From Clostridia bacterium (GTDB lineage Bacteria > Bacillota > Clostridia > Christensenellales > CAG-138), in the NCBI GenBank assembly GCA_017541305.1, contig JAFXZJ010000010.1, forward strand, positions 1-32,931: a stretch of DNA of 32,931 nucleotides. The letters run 5' to 3'. The notes below the pieces were generated by a model. That model made no database searches, had not been told where the DNA came from, and worked only from the letters and a program-made list of their open reading frames with translations. Below, one piece after another: positions 996-16,176 of this stretch. Positions within the stretch are counted from its first letter, which is position 1, and each line of letters begins with the position of its first letter. Made by a program: the position numbers and the translations under genes.

Positions 996-1583
996 CTATA
1001 AAGTCTGCCTTTCGATATTATAGAGCGCCGCCGCCATAAACAGCGCCGGCCTGCGGCCGAGAAGCCTTTCGCGCCTGTCAAGCGCAAGCGCCTTTAAGCA
1101 TGCGTCCGCCGCCAGATTGCGCGAGGCGGGGGAATCGCAGAAGACCGCCATGCGGAAGGCCCTTCTCATCAGCCCGCCTTCGGGGAGCGAGAACGGCGCG
1201 TCGGGCCGTTCGTTTGCCGTGTCGAGCAGCCTTGCCACGGCGTAATCGACGCCGCATGGCGAAAGCCCGATGACCTCGGCAGGGGTTGAGGGCGCATCCC
1301 CCAAGCCTTCGCAGAGCGATAAAAAAGCTTCTTCCGAGATGCCGAAATTGATGAAGCCGCCCGAGACCCATGCCTCGGAAAACAGGGCGCGCCCGCCCAA
1401 ACACACTTCATCACGGATATTATATACCACGGTTTCGGAAATGTCAACCCCGTATTTTCGCGGCAGAGGCGAGCTTACGTCGGCATAGGCTCCGAAAAAG
1501 GTTATATCCGAAGCGCCGGCCCCGGGGAATACCCTTTGAAGCGCGGGCAGCAGCGCCGCTGTTATGCGCTCCCTCGGACTCAT
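996..1583 (-). CDS. Small protein with ArgRS N-domain-like segment
   Basis: A 195-residue protein whose start codon overlaps the stop of the upstream CPBP gene in an ATGA arrangement (1580-1583), so translation is probably coupled. Residues around 80-90 read GGFINFGIS, resembling the GPGFINF(R/F)LS signature that closes the N-terminal domain of arginyl-tRNA synthetase. The preceding stretch is also compatible with that domain. The C-terminal part is Ala/Leu/Arg-rich and predicted helical, perhaps like a DALR-type helical bundle. The HIGH and KMSKS catalytic motifs of a class I synthetase are absent and the protein is far too short to be one. It may be a tRNA-binding or degenerate paralogue. 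The function is unknown and the ArgRS link rests on one motif. Confidence 0.75.
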   Translation of the reverse strand: MSPRERITAALLPALQRVFPGAGASDITFFGAYADVSSPLPRKYGVDISETVVYNIRDEVCLGGRALFSEAWVSGGFINFGISEEAFLSLCEGLGDAPSTPAEVIGLSPCGVDYAVARLLDTANERPDAPFSLPEGGLMRRAFRMAVFCDSPASRNLAADACLKALALDRRERLLGRRPALFMAAALYNIERQTL

Positions 1584-3013
1584 TCGCCGGCCTTCTCCTC
1601 AAGCTTTTCCTCGGCCTTTTCGGCGGTTTTTTCGACCTTCTCTTCGGCCTTTTCGGCGGTTTCTTCGACCTTCTCTTCGGCCTTTTCGGCGGTTTCTTCG
1701 ACCTTCTCTTCGGCCTTTTCGGCGTTTTCTTCGATCTTCTCTTCGGCCTTTTCCTCGGCCTCTACGACCTTCTCTTCGGCCTTTTCGGCGGCCTCTTCGA
1801 CCTTCTCTTCGGCCTTTTCGACCGCTTCTTCTACCTTCTCCTCGGCCTTTTCAGACTTCTTCTTGGCCGAGCCCGTGACCTTTTCAACTGTCGCCTTGGC
1901 CTTTTCCTCGACCTTCTTCACGGCGGCGTCGACCTTTTCCTCGACCGTGTCGACCTTGGATTCGATCTTTTCCACGGCGGCGTCGGCCTTATCCCCGGCC
2001 TTTTCCAGCGCAGTTTCGGGCTTTATGCTGCCGTCGGGGTTCTTCCTTTGGGCGTGGTCCTTTTTTTTACGGCTGTAAAGCCAATCGTCGCGCAAAAGAT
2101 GGAGCGCGGTGAAGGGATAGTCGAATGCCAGCGCGCGGCATTTCTTTGAAAACAGCGCGGGCAGGAGTATGAACGCGGCAAGCACCACGGCAAGCGCGGC
2201 GAGCGCGGCGGGGTAGGGGATGGCGGAGCGTGAGCAGAACTCCGTCACTCCTCCCGCGGTCACGGCCATCAGCATGTGCGAGAGCACGGCGGGTATCACC
2301 GAGCGCAGCCTCCAGGTCAAAACGCCGTGCACCGCGCCGATAAAGAACGCGATGAAGAACGCGCACGAGGCGGCTTCGGTATTGCCCTGGCTCCACTTGG
2401 CGTGGGTAAAGACCATTATATAGGCGGCGACGGCATAGGCGACGGTGGAGAGCACCATTGCCACGGAGAAATGTATCTTTTCGAGATAGCTGAATATCAC
2501 GCCGCGGAATATGAGCTCGAGCACGGCGGGGACCAGCAGCATGAGTATGAGCTGCTTATCGGCAAACGCGCGGCTGACGTCCCGAACGAACATGAGGAAG
2601 CCCTCGGCCTGGGCGCTCTGATGGGCGCCGAAGAAGAGGCTCAGCGAAACGCTCGTCAATATGGAGATAAGCGCGATAAATACAAGATAGATGGGGTTGA
2701 AAAGGTTCAAGCCTCCGCAGTCGTGCGGCGCGCGAAGCGAGAAGCAGAAAACGATCAGCGCGGCGGCGGCGCCGATGATCGCGCAGGTTTTGAAGATGTT
2801 GTTTATATCGCCCGTCATGGCGTCGTTGACGCTCTCGTCTATGTAATGCTGATCCACGGGAGAAGCGGCGTTGGCAACGCGCGCTTCGGCAAGCTCGCGC
2901 GCCTTGTTCTCATAGCTTCGGGGCACCATAAAAAAAGGAACGACAAAGCCGAAAAACACCAGTACAGCCAGCAGAAAAAAGCCCAAGCACTTCAAAAACT
3001 TCATGATCATCAC
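1580..3013 (-). CDS. CPBP-family membrane protease with hendecad coiled-coil tail
   Basis: A 477-residue membrane protein. Residues 1-290 hold about eight hydrophobic segments. ELIFRG (166-171) matches CPBP motif 1 except that the usual first of two glutamates is leucine (LE rather than EE). The second motif appears as FFIGAVHG (223-230) and the third as PAVLSHMLM (241-249), where the histidine is kept but the usual asparagine is not. Proteolytic activity is therefore uncertain. From about residue 335 to the end the protein is Lys/Glu/Ala-rich with an 11-residue period, the last eight units being close copies of EKAEEKVEETA, which predicts a right-handed coiled coil in the cytoplasm. It is first in an operon with the two following genes. 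The start has three nearby ATGs; the first, after a G-rich Shine-Dalgarno, was kept. Bacterial CPBP relatives act in protein processing or bacteriocin immunity. Confidence 0.8.
   Translation of the reverse strand: MMIMKFLKCLGFFLLAVLVFFGFVVPFFMVPRSYENKARELAEARVANAASPVDQHYIDESVNDAMTGDINNIFKTCAIIGAAAALIVFCFSLRAPHDCGGLNLFNPIYLVFIALISILTSVSLSLFFGAHQSAQAEGFLMFVRDVSRAFADKQLILMLLVPAVLELIFRGVIFSYLEKIHFSVAMVLSTVAYAVAAYIMVFTHAKWSQGNTEAASCAFFIAFFIGAVHGVLTWRLRSVIPAVLSHMLMAVTAGGVTEFCSRSAIPYPAALAALAVVLAAFILLPALFSKKCRALAFDYPFTALHLLRDDWLYSRKKKDHAQRKNPDGSIKPETALEKAGDKADAAVEKIESKVDTVEEKVDAAVKKVEEKAKATVEKVTGSAKKKSEKAEEKVEEAVEKAEEKVEEAAEKAEEKVVEAEEKAEEKIEENAEKAEEKVEETAEKAEEKVEETAEKAEEKVEKTAEKAEEKLEEKAGE
1583..1852 (-). 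repeat. 33-bp tandem repeat coding for hendecads
   Basis: Eight near-identical 33-bp units encode the last 90 residues of the CPBP protein, each translating to a variant of EKAEEKVEETA. The neighbouring 5' portion keeps the 11-residue period but has diverged at DNA level. A 33-bp period conserves the frame, so copy number can change without truncating the protein. Confidence 0.9.
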
Positions 3014-3039
3014 ATCCCCGCCCGAAAATGCGGAGTCCC

Positions 3040-3055
3040 TTCAATATATATTGAA
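3040..3055. promoter_or_regulatory. 16-bp perfect palindrome in the operon leader
   Basis: A perfect AT-rich palindrome, TTCAATATATATTGAA, lies between the predicted promoter (3091-3119) and the start of the CPBP gene. It could be an operator or a small RNA hairpin. No regulator is identified. Confidence 0.45.
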
Positions 3056-3090
3056 TGCCCGCGTGTGCGGACAAATCCCCCCAAATCCAT

Positions 3091-3119
3091 ATTATAACAA
3101 AATTTTGCCTTATTTTCAA
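3091..3119 (-). promoter_or_regulatory. SigA-type promoter of the CPBP operon
   Basis: On the minus strand TTGAAA (plus 3114-3119) and TATAAT (plus 3091-3096) are separated by 17 bases. Transcription would begin near 3084 and give a leader of about 70 bases before the CPBP gene. Confidence 0.75.
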
Positions 3120-3148
3120 GTATGAGATTCCCTTTCGCGGCAGATGCT
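3120..3148 (+). promoter_or_regulatory. Possible SigF-like promoter of the M23 gene
   Basis: GTATG at 3120-3124 is followed after 15 bases by GCAGATGCT (3140-3148). This resembles the forespore SigF pattern (GYWTA, then GSNNAHWMT) with one or two mismatches. No SigA promoter is evident on this strand. The resemblance is suggestive only. Confidence 0.3.
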
Positions 3149-3183
3149 ATTTGCGATAGAACCGCATGAAAGGATCTGATAAT

Positions 3184-3954
3184 ATGAAGAAAAAGGAATT
3201 CTCAAGGAGCCGCGTCGAAAGAAGGCTGATCGCGCGGGCGTTTTTCAAAAGGAACGGCGCGTTCATCGCGATAGCCCTGGCGCTGTGCGCGCTGGGCGGG
3301 CTGATCGCGGTCATGCCCTTTGACAGGAGCGAGGCCGATCCCGGCGCGCCCGCCGAAAACTCGATGGATGAGCGCCTGAAGGACGCGCAAAGCTCGGCGT
3401 CTCCCATCCCCCTGCCCACAAGAAGGCCGCTCCCGACGCTTCCTCCCGCCGGGAGCGAGGGGCTTTCGCCCCTGCCCACCGTGATGCCCGATATGACTCC
3501 CGCGCCCTCGAAGGAGCCCATGCCCACTTCGGAAGCCAAGCTCGATTCGCCCGTTGACGGAAAGCTGATCAAGCCCTATGCGATGGACTGCCTGATCTAT
3601 TCAAAGACGCTCAATCAGTGGATGACGCATTCCGGCGTGGATATCGCCGCGCCGATAGGCGCCGAGGTGCGCGCCGTGGCCGCGGGCACGGTCGAATGGG
3701 TGACGGACGACGATCTGCTCGGCACGTGCGTGCTCGTCGATCACGGCAGCGGCCTCAAAACGCTCTATTGCGGGCTTAAGAAGGAGCCGCCCGTCAAGGA
3801 CGGCGACAGGCTCGAGCCCCGCGCGCTGGTGGGCTATGTGGGCGATACCGCCATATCCGAGTGCGCCGAGGAGAGCCACCTGCACTTCGAGGTGATAAAG
3901 GACGGCCTGCCGACCGATCCCGAAGGATACGTGCTTATACCCAAGTCGGAATAA
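3184..3954 (+). CDS. Membrane-anchored M23 (LytM) peptidase, SpoIIQ-like
   Basis: A 256-residue protein with a basic N-terminus, one transmembrane segment (about residues 27-45), a Pro/Ser/Thr-rich linker to about residue 125, and a C-terminal M23 domain facing outward. Zinc-ligand motifs are complete: THSGVD (HxxxD) and HLHFE (HxH), followed by DPEGYV. The domain would cleave peptide cross-bridges in peptidoglycan or act as a scaffold. Layout (N-terminal anchor, linker, LytM domain) resembles SpoIIQ of Clostridia, which pairs with SpoIIIAH across the forespore membranes, but no partner gene is nearby. An ATG 18 bases upstream lacks a good Shine-Dalgarno, whereas AAAGGA sits about ten bases before 3184, so 3184 was chosen. 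It is monocistronic and diverges from the CPBP operon. Confidence 0.85.
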   Translation: MKKKEFSRSRVERRLIARAFFKRNGAFIAIALALCALGGLIAVMPFDRSEADPGAPAENSMDERLKDAQSSASPIPLPTRRPLPTLPPAGSEGLSPLPTVMPDMTPAPSKEPMPTSEAKLDSPVDGKLIKPYAMDCLIYSKTLNQWMTHSGVDIAAPIGAEVRAVAAGTVEWVTDDDLLGTCVLVDHGSGLKTLYCGLKKEPPVKDGDRLEPRALVGYVGDTAISECAEESHLHFEVIKDGLPTDPEGYVLIPKSE

Positions 3955-10648: not shown

Positions 10649-10680
10649 AGCGTCAAATAACCCCTTGGAGGTAAACACTT

Positions 10681-12051
10681 ATGCGCATAAGCATCGACTA
10701 TACCAATATGCTCGCACCGGCCTGCGGCCCGCACGGCGTCACCGAAGAAGAGCTCCGTGCCGAATTCGGCAGGGGGAGCGAGGCCATACGCACGCTCCGC
10801 GCAAAGCGCGATCAGATCCGCTGGCGCGACCTGCCCTATAATCAGGACGAGATAGTTGAAAAGATACTTGCCGTTGCAAACGACGTCCGCGAAAGGGCGG
10901 AAAGCTTCGTTGTGCTGGGCATCGGCGGAAGCGCCCTGGGCCCCATCGCCGTGCAGCAGGCGCTGAACCATCCCCGCTGGAACGAGCTGCCCAAGGCCAA
11001 GCGAAACGGCCCCAGGCTCTACGTTGAGGATAACGTCGATCCCGAGCGCATGGCGGCGCTGTTCGACGTGATCGATCCCGAGACCACCGTTTTCAACGTC
11101 ATCACCAAGTCCGGCTCCACCAGCGAGACCATGGCGCAGCTTCTCACCGTCATGCGCACGCTCATAGACCTTTACGGCGAGGAGCATCTTAAGGACCGCC
11201 TCATCGCCACCACCGACCGCGAAAAGGGCAACCTGATCGGCATAGCAAAGAAATACGGCCTCACCACCTTCTACGTTCCCGAAGGCGTTGGCGGCAGGTT
11301 CTCCGAAATGTGCCCCGTGGGCCTTCTGCCCGCGGCCGTCTGCGGCATCGATATAAAGGAGATGCTGAAGGGCGCCGCCCGGATGGACGCGCTTTGCGAT
11401 AATGATAATATAGAAGAAAACCCCGCGCTGATGTACGCCCTGCTCGAGACCATCGCCATGAAAAAGGGCGCCAACGTGGGCGTGCTGATGCCCTATGCCG
11501 ACAGCTTAAAGTATTTCGCCGATTGGTACGCGCAGCTCTGGGCGGAATCCCTCGGCAAAAAGAAGGACGGCCTCCGCTTCGGTCAGACTCCCGTCAAGGC
11601 GCTGGGCGTCACCGATCAGCATTCCCAGGTGCAGCTTTACACCGACGGCCCCTTCGACAAGACCGTCACCTTCCTGGGCGTTGAAAAATACCGCACCGAA
11701 TTCATGATCCCCCACGCGGTCGATGAAAACCCCAACGTGGCGTTCCTTTCGGGCCACACCTTCAACGAGCTTATATCCGCCGAGCGCAAGGCCACCGCGC
11801 ACGCCGTCACCGTCTCCGGCCATATGAACAAGACCATACTCCTGCCCGAGGTCAACGCAAACACGATAGGTCAGCTGATGATGCTCTTCGAGCTTGCCAC
11901 CGCCTATGCCGGCGAGCTTCTGGGCATAAATGCCTACGATCAGCCCGGCGTTGAGGAGGGCAAGAACATGACCTATGCCCTGCTCGGCAAAAAGGGCTAC
12001 GAGGCCAAGCTCGAGGAAATGAAGGATTCCGCCGAGAGAAAGCTCGTCTGA
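10681..12051 (+). CDS. pgi: Glucose-6-phosphate isomerase
   Basis: A 456-residue cytoplasmic enzyme that interconverts glucose 6-phosphate and fructose 6-phosphate in glycolysis and gluconeogenesis. The length is that of the short bacterial form (about 450). Family motifs in order are GIGGSALGP (sugar-phosphate loop), TKSGSTSET (phosphate binding), GVGGRFSEM (PGI signature 1) and the catalytic region AESLGKKKDG...TDQHSQVQL with the conserved glutamate and histidine. A TTGGAGG Shine-Dalgarno lies nine bases before the ATG. The codon choice is rich in C-ending codons, which suggests good expression. rodA follows after 73 bases without an obvious terminator, so the two may be transcribed together. 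Confidence 0.97.
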   Translation: MRISIDYTNMLAPACGPHGVTEEELRAEFGRGSEAIRTLRAKRDQIRWRDLPYNQDEIVEKILAVANDVRERAESFVVLGIGGSALGPIAVQQALNHPRWNELPKAKRNGPRLYVEDNVDPERMAALFDVIDPETTVFNVITKSGSTSETMAQLLTVMRTLIDLYGEEHLKDRLIATTDREKGNLIGIAKKYGLTTFYVPEGVGGRFSEMCPVGLLPAAVCGIDIKEMLKGAARMDALCDNDNIEENPALMYALLETIAMKKGANVGVLMPYADSLKYFADWYAQLWAESLGKKKDGLRFGQTPVKALGVTDQHSQVQLYTDGPFDKTVTFLGVEKYRTEFMIPHAVDENPNVAFLSGHTFNELISAERKATAHAVTVSGHMNKTILLPEVNANTIGQLMMLFELATAYAGELLGINAYDQPGVEEGKNMTYALLGKKGYEAKLEEMKDSAERKLV

Positions 12052-13368: not shown

Positions 13369-13450
13369 GCTTTTTATAGTGTAAGGCTTCCCATTTTTTT
13401 CCGTCTTATAGTATGAAGATCCTCAGAATAACTGTTCTTGGGAGGGCCCC

Positions 13451-14020
13451 GTGGACGACAGGAGGATAATCGAGCTCTATTTCAACAGGGACGAGCAGGC
13501 GATAAAGGAGTCGAAGGATAAATACGGCCCCTATTGCTTTGCCGTTGCCAAAAACATACTGGGCTCGGCCGAGGACGCCGAGGAATGCGTGAGCACCGCG
13601 CTTTTGAAGGCGTGGAATTCCATCCCGCCTAACCGGCCGGGCAGCTTAAAGCTCTACCTTGCCAAGCTCACCCGGCGGGCGAGCCTCGACCGCGCCGACC
13701 TCAACAACGCCCTAAAGCGCGGGGGAGGGGAGCTGCCGCTGGTGCTCGACGAGCTTCGCGAAACGGCGTCCGACGGGCGCGATCCATTGAGCGAGCTCGA
13801 GGCGAAAGAGCTTGCATCGGCCGTGAACGCGTTCCTGCGGACGCTTCCCGAGCTCGACCGAAACCTGTTCATCCGAAGATGCTTCTTTGCGGAGGCCGTC
13901 CCGGATATTGCTGAAAGATACGGAATAAGCCGCGGCGCGGCGGACGCAAGGCTGTCGCGCACGCGCAAAAAACTCAGGGCATACTTGGAAAAGGAGGGGC
14001 TGATAGATGGATCCCGCTGA
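13451..14020 (+). CDS. ECF-type RNA polymerase sigma factor (second module)
   Basis: A 189-residue protein with the sigma-2 pattern YFNRDEQAIKESKDKYGPYCFAVAKNILGSAEDAEECVSTALLKAW and a C-terminal region-4 helix-turn-helix (VPDIAERYGISRGAADARLSRTRKKLRAYL). The phrase YGPYCFAVAKNILG is common in clostridial ECF groups whose neighbour gene encodes a membrane partner. The start is GTG, six bases after GGGAGG. Its end overlaps the next gene by 14 bases, a sign of coupled translation with a partner held in stoichiometry. TATAGT occurs twice upstream (about 13376 and 13405) but no convincing -35 accompanies either, so the promoter may be self-recognised. Confidence 0.9.
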   Translation: MDDRRIIELYFNRDEQAIKESKDKYGPYCFAVAKNILGSAEDAEECVSTALLKAWNSIPPNRPGSLKLYLAKLTRRASLDRADLNNALKRGGGELPLVLDELRETASDGRDPLSELEAKELASAVNAFLRTLPELDRNLFIRRCFFAEAVPDIAERYGISRGAADARLSRTRKKLRAYLEKEGLIDGSR

Positions 14021-14846
14021 TCTCATAAAAGCGATGGGCGAAATAGACGACGACCTTATCGAAGGCAGCGAAAGGCCGCGCGGCAGGGCACTTTTGCGCA
14101 TACTGCCCATTGCCGCGGCGTTCGTTCTGGTGTTCGCCGCCGCGGCCGCGCTCATGCTGTTCCTCGGCAAAAAGGGAGAGGGACCGGAGCATTCGGCAAA
14201 CGCCCCCGAGGCGACCGAGGCAGCGGAGATCCCGACCTCCGATCCCGCGCAGAGCGATACCGACCTCTATCTGAACGTGGTGTCCACGCTTCCCCCGGGA
14301 GCGACCGAGGTGCCCGGCTGGGAGAACGAGCCGGTCCCCTCCGAGAAGGACTACGTGAGGCTCGCCTCCGCGCGCGAGCTTGCGGGGAAGGCCGATATAA
14401 TCGTCCGCGCAAGGATAGTCGATTCGATCTGCGCCTACGTTCCCGTCGATCTCGTAAAGGATGCGAAGGGGCGCTTCATGCCCGTGAAGACGGGCGAGAG
14501 CACGCTTCACACCATCTACGGGATACAGGTGCTCGAGGTCTACAAGGGCGGAGAGACGGCGGAGAGCGTGAAGCGCGTGATGGTGCCCGGAGGCATAGTT
14601 GAGGGCGTCGTTCAAAGCATAGGCTACCCCGATTACGCGCAGTACTGCAGGGGCGGCGAATGCGTGCTCTTCCTCAATCTGCCCGAGGAGAGCCAAGGGT
14701 GGATATGGAGCGATATGGCGGTCCCCATGGGCTTCAACGAGGACCGCTGCGATATAGAATATGACGGAGGAGTCAGCGTGATCAAATGCCGCTTCCCGGA
14801 GATCACCTTCGACTGGCTCGAATCGCTTTCCGAAGGAGCGGTATAG
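14007..14846 (+). CDS. Membrane sensor/anti-sigma partner with outer VYKG-type domain
   Basis: A 279-residue protein. A short acidic cytoplasmic N-terminus (MDPADLIKAMGEIDDDLIEGS) precedes one transmembrane span (about residues 30-52) and an outer part. After an acidic linker, residues 110-279 form a domain with the order ARELAGKADIIVRARI, YGIQVLEVYKG, GGECVLFLN, W and FDWLESL. The same domain occurs twice in the next gene. ADIIVRARI...VYKG...GEYVLFL recalls the TIMP/NTR-like OB-fold pattern, but this is only a resemblance. It overlaps the ECF gene by 14 bases and is the probable anti-sigma factor, although the cytoplasmic part is only about 30 residues. A GGAGGGG site precedes the ATG. Confidence 0.8.
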   Translation: MDPADLIKAMGEIDDDLIEGSERPRGRALLRILPIAAAFVLVFAAAAALMLFLGKKGEGPEHSANAPEATEAAEIPTSDPAQSDTDLYLNVVSTLPPGATEVPGWENEPVPSEKDYVRLASARELAGKADIIVRARIVDSICAYVPVDLVKDAKGRFMPVKTGESTLHTIYGIQVLEVYKGGETAESVKRVMVPGGIVEGVVQSIGYPDYAQYCRGGECVLFLNLPEESQGWIWSDMAVPMGFNEDRCDIEYDGGVSVIKCRFPEITFDWLESLSEGAV

Positions 14847-14874
14847 AGGGGACGGCTCAGAGAGGAGCATGAAT

Positions 14875-16176
14875 ATGAAACGAATCGCCTTTATCGCTTT
14901 GGTACTTGCCGCGCTTATGCTCTGCGCCTGCGCCGTGGGCGTGCCCGAAGCGGCTTTATCCGTGACGGACGCCCCTGCGTCGGAGCCGACCTCTTCTCCG
15001 ACGGAAGCTCCTACGCCCGAGCCGACGGATACCCCCGCGCCCACGGCGGAGCCCGAGCCGTACAGGTGCATGGAGGTGCTGCCCACGCCGGAGGCCGGAA
15101 CGCCTGCAGTATCGTTCTCCTCGGAGATATGTTACATCGAACCGATCGCGTCTGCTGCTGAGCTCGAAAAGCTTACCGAATGCATAGTGCTTGCCAGGAT
15201 CACCGAAAGCGTCTGCGTCAAGGTCCCCGTCAGGCTGCTGTTCGATGAGGCCGGTGAGCCGTATCCGGACGGATCGGCATATAAATGGGTGCACACCGTT
15301 TACGATCTTGAAATACTTCACGTGTATAAGGGCGAGGAAGCCGCTTCAGGCATAAAGCGCATGATGGCGGAAGGCGGAGACCTCATCGCCCCGGGCGACG
15401 ACGCCCCCCGCACTCAGCCGTACGAGGTCGGCGGCGAGTACGTGCTGTTCCTTAACAGACCGGAATACGGAGAAAGCTGGGTCTGGCCCGAGATAGCCGT
15501 TCCCGCGGGCGACGCCTATGATCTCGGCAAGATAGAGCATGACGGAAGCGGAGCCCGGATACTTCGCAGCCGTTTTGATGATATGACCTGGGAGTGGCTC
15601 GACGGACTCAGCGGCAATGCTTCCGAGCCCGAGCTGCCGCGCATTGAACCGTGGGACGGCACTGCGGAGAACGCCGGCACCCTGATACCCGAGTATTGGT
15701 ATCCCGCATCAATGGATGAGCTTCTTGAAAGATCTGCCGACGTGGTGCGCGTCAGGATCGGCGGGAAGGGGTATGAAAAGCACGTGTATCCCACGGAGAA
15801 CGGCGCCGATTATACCGCTTACTGCGCGATCTATGATGCGGAGATCGTCGAATCCTATATGGGAGAGACGAATAAAGGAGATACAATCAGGGTGGAGATC
15901 TGGTGCGGTATGGAGCAGGGCGGCAGGATCGCCCTCGAGGAGCATCCGCTCACGTTGACCGAAGGAGAGGAGTATGTGCTCTTCCTGACCGAGGACAGGG
16001 ACTTTGACGGGCTCAGATATCCGACGGCGAATGATGACGGCGTCCATTTGGTCATGCACGACAGCTATCAGGGCAGCGACGGCGCCGTGACGGAGGTCGA
16101 GTGGGTCTCACTGGGCTTCGATATCTGGCCGGAGGAAAGCTTCTCGTGGCTCGAAAACCTTAAAAACACGCATTGA
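14875..16176 (+). CDS. Lipoprotein with two VYKG-type domains
   Basis: A 433-residue predicted lipoprotein with lipobox LMLCAC (cysteine about 19), a Pro/Thr/Glu linker to about residue 65, and two tandem outer domains (roughly 85-245 and 265-430). The first has CIVLARITESVCVKVPV, YDLEILHVYKG, GGEYVLFLN and MTWEWLDGL; the second has ADVVRVRI, YDAEIVESYMG, EGEEYVLFL and FSWLENL. Both match the outer domain of the preceding membrane protein. Of two ATGs, 14875 lies seven bases after GGAG, whereas 14869 is too close, so 14875 was chosen. It is the last gene of the ECF module, 28 bases after its neighbour. It may present the signal to, or compete with, the membrane partner. No known function. Confidence 0.85.
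   Translation: MKRIAFIALVLAALMLCACAVGVPEAALSVTDAPASEPTSSPTEAPTPEPTDTPAPTAEPEPYRCMEVLPTPEAGTPAVSFSSEICYIEPIASAAELEKLTECIVLARITESVCVKVPVRLLFDEAGEPYPDGSAYKWVHTVYDLEILHVYKGEEAASGIKRMMAEGGDLIAPGDDAPRTQPYEVGGEYVLFLNRPEYGESWVWPEIAVPAGDAYDLGKIEHDGSGARILRSRFDDMTWEWLDGLSGNASEPELPRIEPWDGTAENAGTLIPEYWYPASMDELLERSADVVRVRIGGKGYEKHVYPTENGADYTAYCAIYDAEIVESYMGETNKGDTIRVEIWCGMEQGGRIALEEHPLTLTEGEEYVLFLTEDRDFDGLRYPTANDDGVHLVMHDSYQGSDGAVTEVEWVSLGFDIWPEESFSWLENLKNTH

Follow-up and report, generated by a model that had tools for sequence, protein, structure and literature searches.

An ECF sigma factor locus in a Clostridia bacterium whose outer domain recurs in the adjacent lipoprotein: a candidate inhibitor-bait switch

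In Bacillus subtilis, RsiV, the single-pass partner of the extracytoplasmic function (ECF) sigma factor SigV, carries an outer domain that serves as the receptor for lysozyme and also inhibits this enzyme, and the operon includes a resistance gene, oatA (PMC4183432, PMC5014341; this and the other published systems are compared from parts of the papers cited). Here we describe a locus of similar layout on contig JAFXZJ010000010.1 of a Clostridia bacterium (assembly GCA_017541305.1), where genes for an ECF sigma factor, a membrane partner and a lipoprotein follow one another at positions 13451..16176 of a forward-strand stretch of 32,931 nucleotides, the window, and where the partner's outer domain is used again twice in the lipoprotein. 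We propose, tentatively and with the balance of probability leaning slightly against us, that the three genes form an autoregulated ECF switch with an inhibitor-fold bait and a lipoprotein effector. By analogy, RsiV is the closest proven parallel to such a switch.

The two systems share an ECF sigma factor and a single-pass partner with an outer domain and, if our proposal holds, a sensor domain that also inhibits the inducing enzyme. They differ in that the inducer of RsiV is lysozyme and that the parts of the RsiV reports drawn on here mention no lipoprotein copy of the sensor domain. Further, the window's partner has no Pfam match to DUF4163 or DUF3298, the outer domains of the RsiV family.

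Other described systems resemble the locus in single respects. The BlaR1/MecR1 sensor and beta-lactamase are homologous. The transpeptidase-like outer domain of BlaR1/MecR1 senses a drug that the induced enzyme destroys, whereas signalling there uses a cytoplasmic protease and a repressor, with no sigma factor (PMC8092216). In SigP-RsiP-PbpP of Bacillus thuringiensis, the product of a third gene, which directly follows those of the sigma and anti-sigma factors, acts outside the membrane, but it is a penicillin-binding protein and the sensor of that system, whereas the third gene here encodes a lipoprotein repeating the partner's domain (PMC8092216). SigI-RsgI of Clostridium thermocellum comprises many paralogous, usually autoregulated sigma-partner pairs with outer sensory modules; these are of the SigI class and sense polysaccharides, whereas those described below are of the ECF class and bear inhibitor-like and unknown domains (PMC6056542). 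An open-licence literature search returned no work joining an anti-sigma factor and a serpin in title or abstract (nor does the part of PMC3990059 drawn on link them), nothing on an anti-sigma factor with a tissue inhibitor of metalloproteinase (TIMP) and, on TIMP-like proteins with bacteria, helminth work only; none of the matches listed was a precedent for an anti-sigma/protease-inhibitor pairing or a decoy-lipoprotein paralog.

One domain in three copies

The open reading frames of the original prediction are all present. The sigma factor (13451..14020, +; 189 aa, GTG start) is short and contains sigma-70 regions 2 and 4, as expected of the ECF class, with matches to PF04542 (Sigma70_r2, 36.1 bits) and PF08281 (r4_2, 34.1 bits), both over the Pfam cut-off, and to NCBIfam TIGR02937 (62.4 bits, cut-off 42.9). 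Directly after it, and overlapping it by 14 bases, lies the gene of the partner (14007..14846, +; 279 aa), a predicted single-pass protein with a short inner part, one hydrophobic segment at about aa 35-53 (14109..14165, +; hydropathy peak 2.8 at offset 34) and outer domain A (14337..14843, +). Gene order, N-terminal likeness by eye and the presence of a hydrophobic segment across sister loci suggest that the partner is an anti-sigma factor; a Pfam scan of it found no anti-sigma domain. A gap of 22 to 28 bases separates the partner gene from that of the lipoprotein (14875..16176, +), whose frame opens at 14869 and for which the spacing to a GGAG stretch favours the start at 14875. The lipoprotein's signal peptide contains a lipobox-like L-C-A-C (14920..14931, +), at which the protein is presumably lipidated, and two domains follow, B1 (15127..15618, +) and B2 (15682..16173, +). 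Because of the 14-base overlap and the short gap, the three genes are likely to share one transcript. Neither the partner nor the lipoprotein matches a Pfam family over its cut-off or any PDB sequence.

Over 161 aa, domains A and B1 share 41% identity and align with a score of 308; the highest score among 2000 shuffles was 66. B2 has diverged (23-27% identity to the other copies): its score against A, 55, was reached by 3 of 2000 shuffles, and its score against B1, 65, by none of 2000. A single-sequence search with A in its own genome returns A and B1 only, even at E 10, and a profile built with all three copies recovers all three, which for B2 is circular since the profile contains it. Thirteen columns of a five-row alignment are invariant across all copies. 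The four motifs that the original prediction had described as shared are recognisable throughout, with letters that vary between copies: they read DIIVRARI, CIVLARI and DVVRVRI; LEVYKG, LHVYKG and VESYMG; GGECVLFL, GGEYVLFL and GEEYVLFL; and, at the close, FDWLESL, WEWLDGL and FSWLENL. The three segments thus align as one domain in three copies, as predicted, and judged by sequence these are one close pair (A, B1) and one distant third (B2). In a tree of the five copies, A and B1 are unresolved against a joined pair of congeneric orthologues and B2 sits on a very long branch; identity between A and B1 is 42%, against 34-37% to the orthologous domains.

A structure model of A has an N-TIMP/NTR-like OB fold of the kind found in the N-terminal domain of the TIMP family (PF00965), and the structural match list places the NtA domain of agrin and the NTR domains of complement next to the TIMPs. 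The earlier guess of a TIMP/NTR-like fold therefore holds at the level of the modelled fold and finds no support from sequence profiles. By sequence, nothing usable for the domain was found in Pfam, NCBIfam or PDB sequences (single PDB rows at E 0.77 and E 0.13). Among 398 genomes of the phylum, two have a PF00965 match over cut-off; with one of these matches enlarged to an alignment (26 rows, one of them a repeat), hhalign gave A a probability of 0.1-0.2, with column-shuffled controls reaching 1.6 and 2.6. TIMP membership by sequence was rejected, and so the fold match stands alone. A TIMP-family query of the viral contig collection found none, and query P0001 of the genome contig collection no confirmed relative. 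TIMPs chelate zinc through a free N-terminal cysteine. The partner has cysteines at aa 142, 214, 219, 248 and 261, with none at the start of the domain near aa 111.

Sister switches in the genus

This sigma factor has 21 matches in the window's genome, and a search of 13 genomes of the genus, that one among them, found four or more in every genome. We read 92 sigma places, leaving out weak, contig-end or late-in-list matches; 91 have a called partner, 90 of these with a clear hydrophobic segment, and locus counts are on 90, leaving out L036 and L049, for which none was called. Partner N-termini look alike by eye, and the outer parts split into many clusters. Ten representative outer domains were scanned against Pfam: nine had no match over cut-off, and one had RCC1 repeats (L083, a 930-residue partner at 1025-3814 of G086:C10, with the repeats in its outer part). 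On a quick tree of 89 sigmas, of which 18 fell outside the counted groups, outer type tracks the sigma factor, exchanges being present: ten groups require 19 changes against a shuffled mean of 49.5, and 0 of 200 shuffles were as low. The next gene has a lipobox-like start at 21 of the 90 loci by pattern search, a few of them doubtful.

The exact triple was found in this genome only, a uniqueness that counts in part against the original prediction, yet sister loci show the same arrangement with different domains, serpins among them. A sigma-linked surface module is supported. The triple lies between a RodA/FtsW-type gene (PF01098) and a class-V aminotransferase gene (PF00266), by reading SerC. 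Two relatives, G087 and G085, carry the sigma-partner pair at the same place between these genes, with no lipoprotein and with 201 and 163 bases, respectively, before the aminotransferase gene; in Christensenella sp. UBA3857 (L116) both flanking genes are adjacent, with no switch. Given this distribution, the lipoprotein is either a lineage-specific gain or was lost elsewhere.

Upstream of the sigma gene is a putative promoter element (13381..13410, +) consisting of GTAAGG, a 16-base spacer and GTCTTATA. Related elements (GTCTTATA-like and GTGAAGG, with the upstream box read as GTAAGG, GTTACC and others) precede most sister sigma genes, scoring above the 95th percentile of shuffled sequence before 84 of 91; in this set L270 repeats L079 (both misses) and L264 comes from a sister genus, leaving 90 distinct places. 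Autoregulation is described as usual for SigI and ECF factors in the part of PMC6056542 drawn on, and the element would fit autoregulation of the switch. Its pattern matches in the window and at one other place in the genome, and a control pattern has one match, so we claim no regulon. At many loci (L003, L051 and L063 among them) a short palindrome, TGAAGG...CCTTCA, was seen by eye just after the -10-like element, at the likely transcript start; it is perhaps an operator or a 5' hairpin.

At four of the 90 loci, the window included, the partner's outer domain is repeated in the next gene. The other three involve a serpin (G000 contig 30, L037, 567-3634; partner and lipoprotein 41% identical over 381 aa), an unknown domain (G000 contig 55; 42% over 437 aa, 438 bases downstream) and a domain of the type we call A4 (G082 contig 57; 38% over 221 aa). 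Because A4 and the window's family are distantly related, the four doublings represent three unrelated domain families. At L037 the serpin family PF00079 scores 193.4 bits in the partner and 210.1 bits in the next gene (cut-off 27), and both keep a hinge-like stretch, by a pattern that missed 7 of 21 serpins. When partners and next genes are paired at random, the mean is 1.5 doublings against the four observed (permutation P 0.047) or, with serpin partners removed, 0.36 against three (P 0.004). Eight apparent doublings in cluster 0 were not counted, the proteins carrying different domains and the link probably lying in proline-threonine linkers; nor were L052 (E 1e-5 alone, 0.096 in the all-loci search) and L083 (E 0.041 in the all-loci search). 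The partners at L040, L100 and L086 carry the lipoprotein-type domain.

Serpins are found on the partner at 13 loci, on the next gene at 8 and on either at 20 of 90. In the largest serpin clade of the sigma tree (support 91), 16 of 17 loci carry a serpin, be it on the partner or on the next gene, which links the serpin with the switch as a whole and not with a single gene. Starred branches of the tree force at least three changes for the serpin type.

The close family of the window's domain is confined to one genus in searches of family and order genomes: four genomes of the 103 in the family gave a match at E 0.01, that of L005 in G099 being read as spurious, and of 396 genomes in the order three gave a match, a weak one at E 8.7e-4 included. 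Two relatives emerge at profile level. The first comprises 11 partner outer domains and one next-gene lipoprotein, with more lipoproteins in a sister genus (alignments A4 and A5), and A4 matches 15 of the 103 family genomes, in two genera; the second, cluster c9, comprises four partners beside serpin next genes. With A3 as the window's domain family, hhalign gave 94% for A3-A5, 92% for A5-c9 and 78% for A3-c9, against forty column shuffles each with none above 1.2% and seven other clusters at or below 0.6%. Comparing single sequences with the three related profiles was too weak to assign more partners (0 of 90 partners and 0 of 126 next genes passed probability 50). The partners at L046 and L073 carry two tandem A4-type domains on one chain. 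At two of 18 loci (L258, 3991-5533, G021:C53; L259, 12-1715, G023:C19) an A4-type lipoprotein is followed directly by a secreted HExxHxxGxxD protein, which resembles the Pfam families matrixin and M7 with scores short of their cut-offs. At L088 (G081:C23, ~10657-10821) a decayed stretch directly after an A4-type partner gene resembles the cysteine-rich tail that the HExxH protein has in the sister genus.

Proposed mechanism and alternatives

In the switch that we propose, the partner would act as an anti-sigma factor, keeping the sigma factor at the membrane, and would expose its N-TIMP-like inhibitor-fold domain as bait for a protein outside the cell, a secreted or foreign protease being the likeliest. 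Binding would lead to regulated intramembrane proteolysis of the partner and free the sigma factor, which would then transcribe its own operon and yield more of the two-headed lipoprotein. The domain copies of this lipoprotein would bind the same ligand, neutralising it or keeping it off the sensor, and the lipoprotein could in this way both protect the surface and end the signal. Competition for a ligand and decoy action, both raised by the original prediction, are possible within this scheme. The fold of A, the serpins at sister loci and the HExxHxxGxxD protein at 2 of 18 loci together suggest a link to proteases. Inhibitory serpins trap proteases covalently, and the serpin pairs therefore make the bait model directly testable.

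If true, the proposal would offer a rule for orphan ECF partners, whose outer domain can copy the effector, so that a neighbouring gene gives a clue to the ligand; the principle known from RsiV and lysozyme, that the receptor is also the inhibitor, would then apply to proteases as well; and it would give a reason for the many sigma-partner pairs of one genus with outer domains unknown to Pfam. We regard a wider version as rather doubtful. It would have this genus of gut Clostridia carry an arsenal of paralogous sigma switches, with sensors that include NTR/TIMP-like and serpin folds as enzyme-specific baits, adjacent lipoproteins as induced effectors with the same inhibitor, and inhibitor domains moving between sensor and effector, as a modular surface defence against host, protist or competitor proteases.

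Several observations weigh against the bait-and-effector switch. Domain A has no profile link to bacterial TIMP-family members (probability 0.1-0.2, no higher than column shuffles) and lacks the TIMP-type N-terminal zinc-binding cysteine, coming after a hydrophobic segment and linker; moreover, NTR folds also serve non-inhibitory binding, as in agrin and complement. Both relatives with the same pair lack the lipoprotein, so the switch can do without it. Doubling is seen at just 4 of 90 loci, with P values that are rough since paralogues were treated as independent, and 7 of the 8 serpin next genes adjoin a partner without a serpin. The HExxH neighbour occurs at 2 of 18 loci only, and no relative of it was detected in the window's genome. 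Finally, the promoter matrix was trained on the same sequences that it scored.

The lipoprotein could instead be a co-sensor that captures the ligand before the partner does and then either hands it over or sets off the partner's cleavage, the role that PbpP has towards RsiP. The adjacency of a third gene here too, as in SigP-RsiP-PbpP (PMC8092216), speaks for this arrangement, but the partner itself has the same domain and two relatives keep the pair without a lipoprotein, and we judge it unlikely. About as improbable is a general binding or adhesion module through which both the sensor and the lipoprotein recognise a common surface, matrix or nutrient without inhibition. Such a module would agree with the rank of agrin NtA and complement NTR domains beside TIMPs and with the lack of a protease link in most other outer domains (nine of the ten without a Pfam match, one RCC1); however, the serpin, a protease-inhibitor family, is the most often identified outer domain (13 of 90 partners), and the A-related domains of c9 are on partners beside serpin lipoproteins.

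More improbable still is a local tandem duplication with no special mechanism, in which a copy of the outer domain came to lie beside the original and persisted as an ordinary lipoprotein. Speaking for it are the finding of the lipoprotein in this genome only, the closeness of A and B1 relative to orthologous domains and the rarity of doubling. Against it, unused copies would easily be lost, and doubling is spread over four sequence clusters, of which two are distantly related, each product with a secretion-type start by reading. Docking of B1 or B2 on A to hold or release the switch is highly improbable: A and B1 are similar enough that a mixed dimer could form, but two relatives have the pair without B.

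Minor observations at the sister loci

RsiV-family proteins have an A-x-A signal peptidase site just behind the transmembrane segment. A crude scan for A-x-A gave matches in 19 of 90 partners, and the window's partner (the first row) is not among the 12 matches listed in row order. At four loci of one genome (L041, L043, L047 and L048 in G000) a partner type with A-x-A after the hydrophobic segment was noted, with a small secreted protein family encoded next at three of the four; L048 additionally encodes a secreted protein with an HEFSH stretch and no Pfam match over cut-off. In the same genome, one sigma-partner pair is followed by a VanY-type carboxypeptidase gene with a lipoprotein-like start (L042, G000:C1, 5385-6656).
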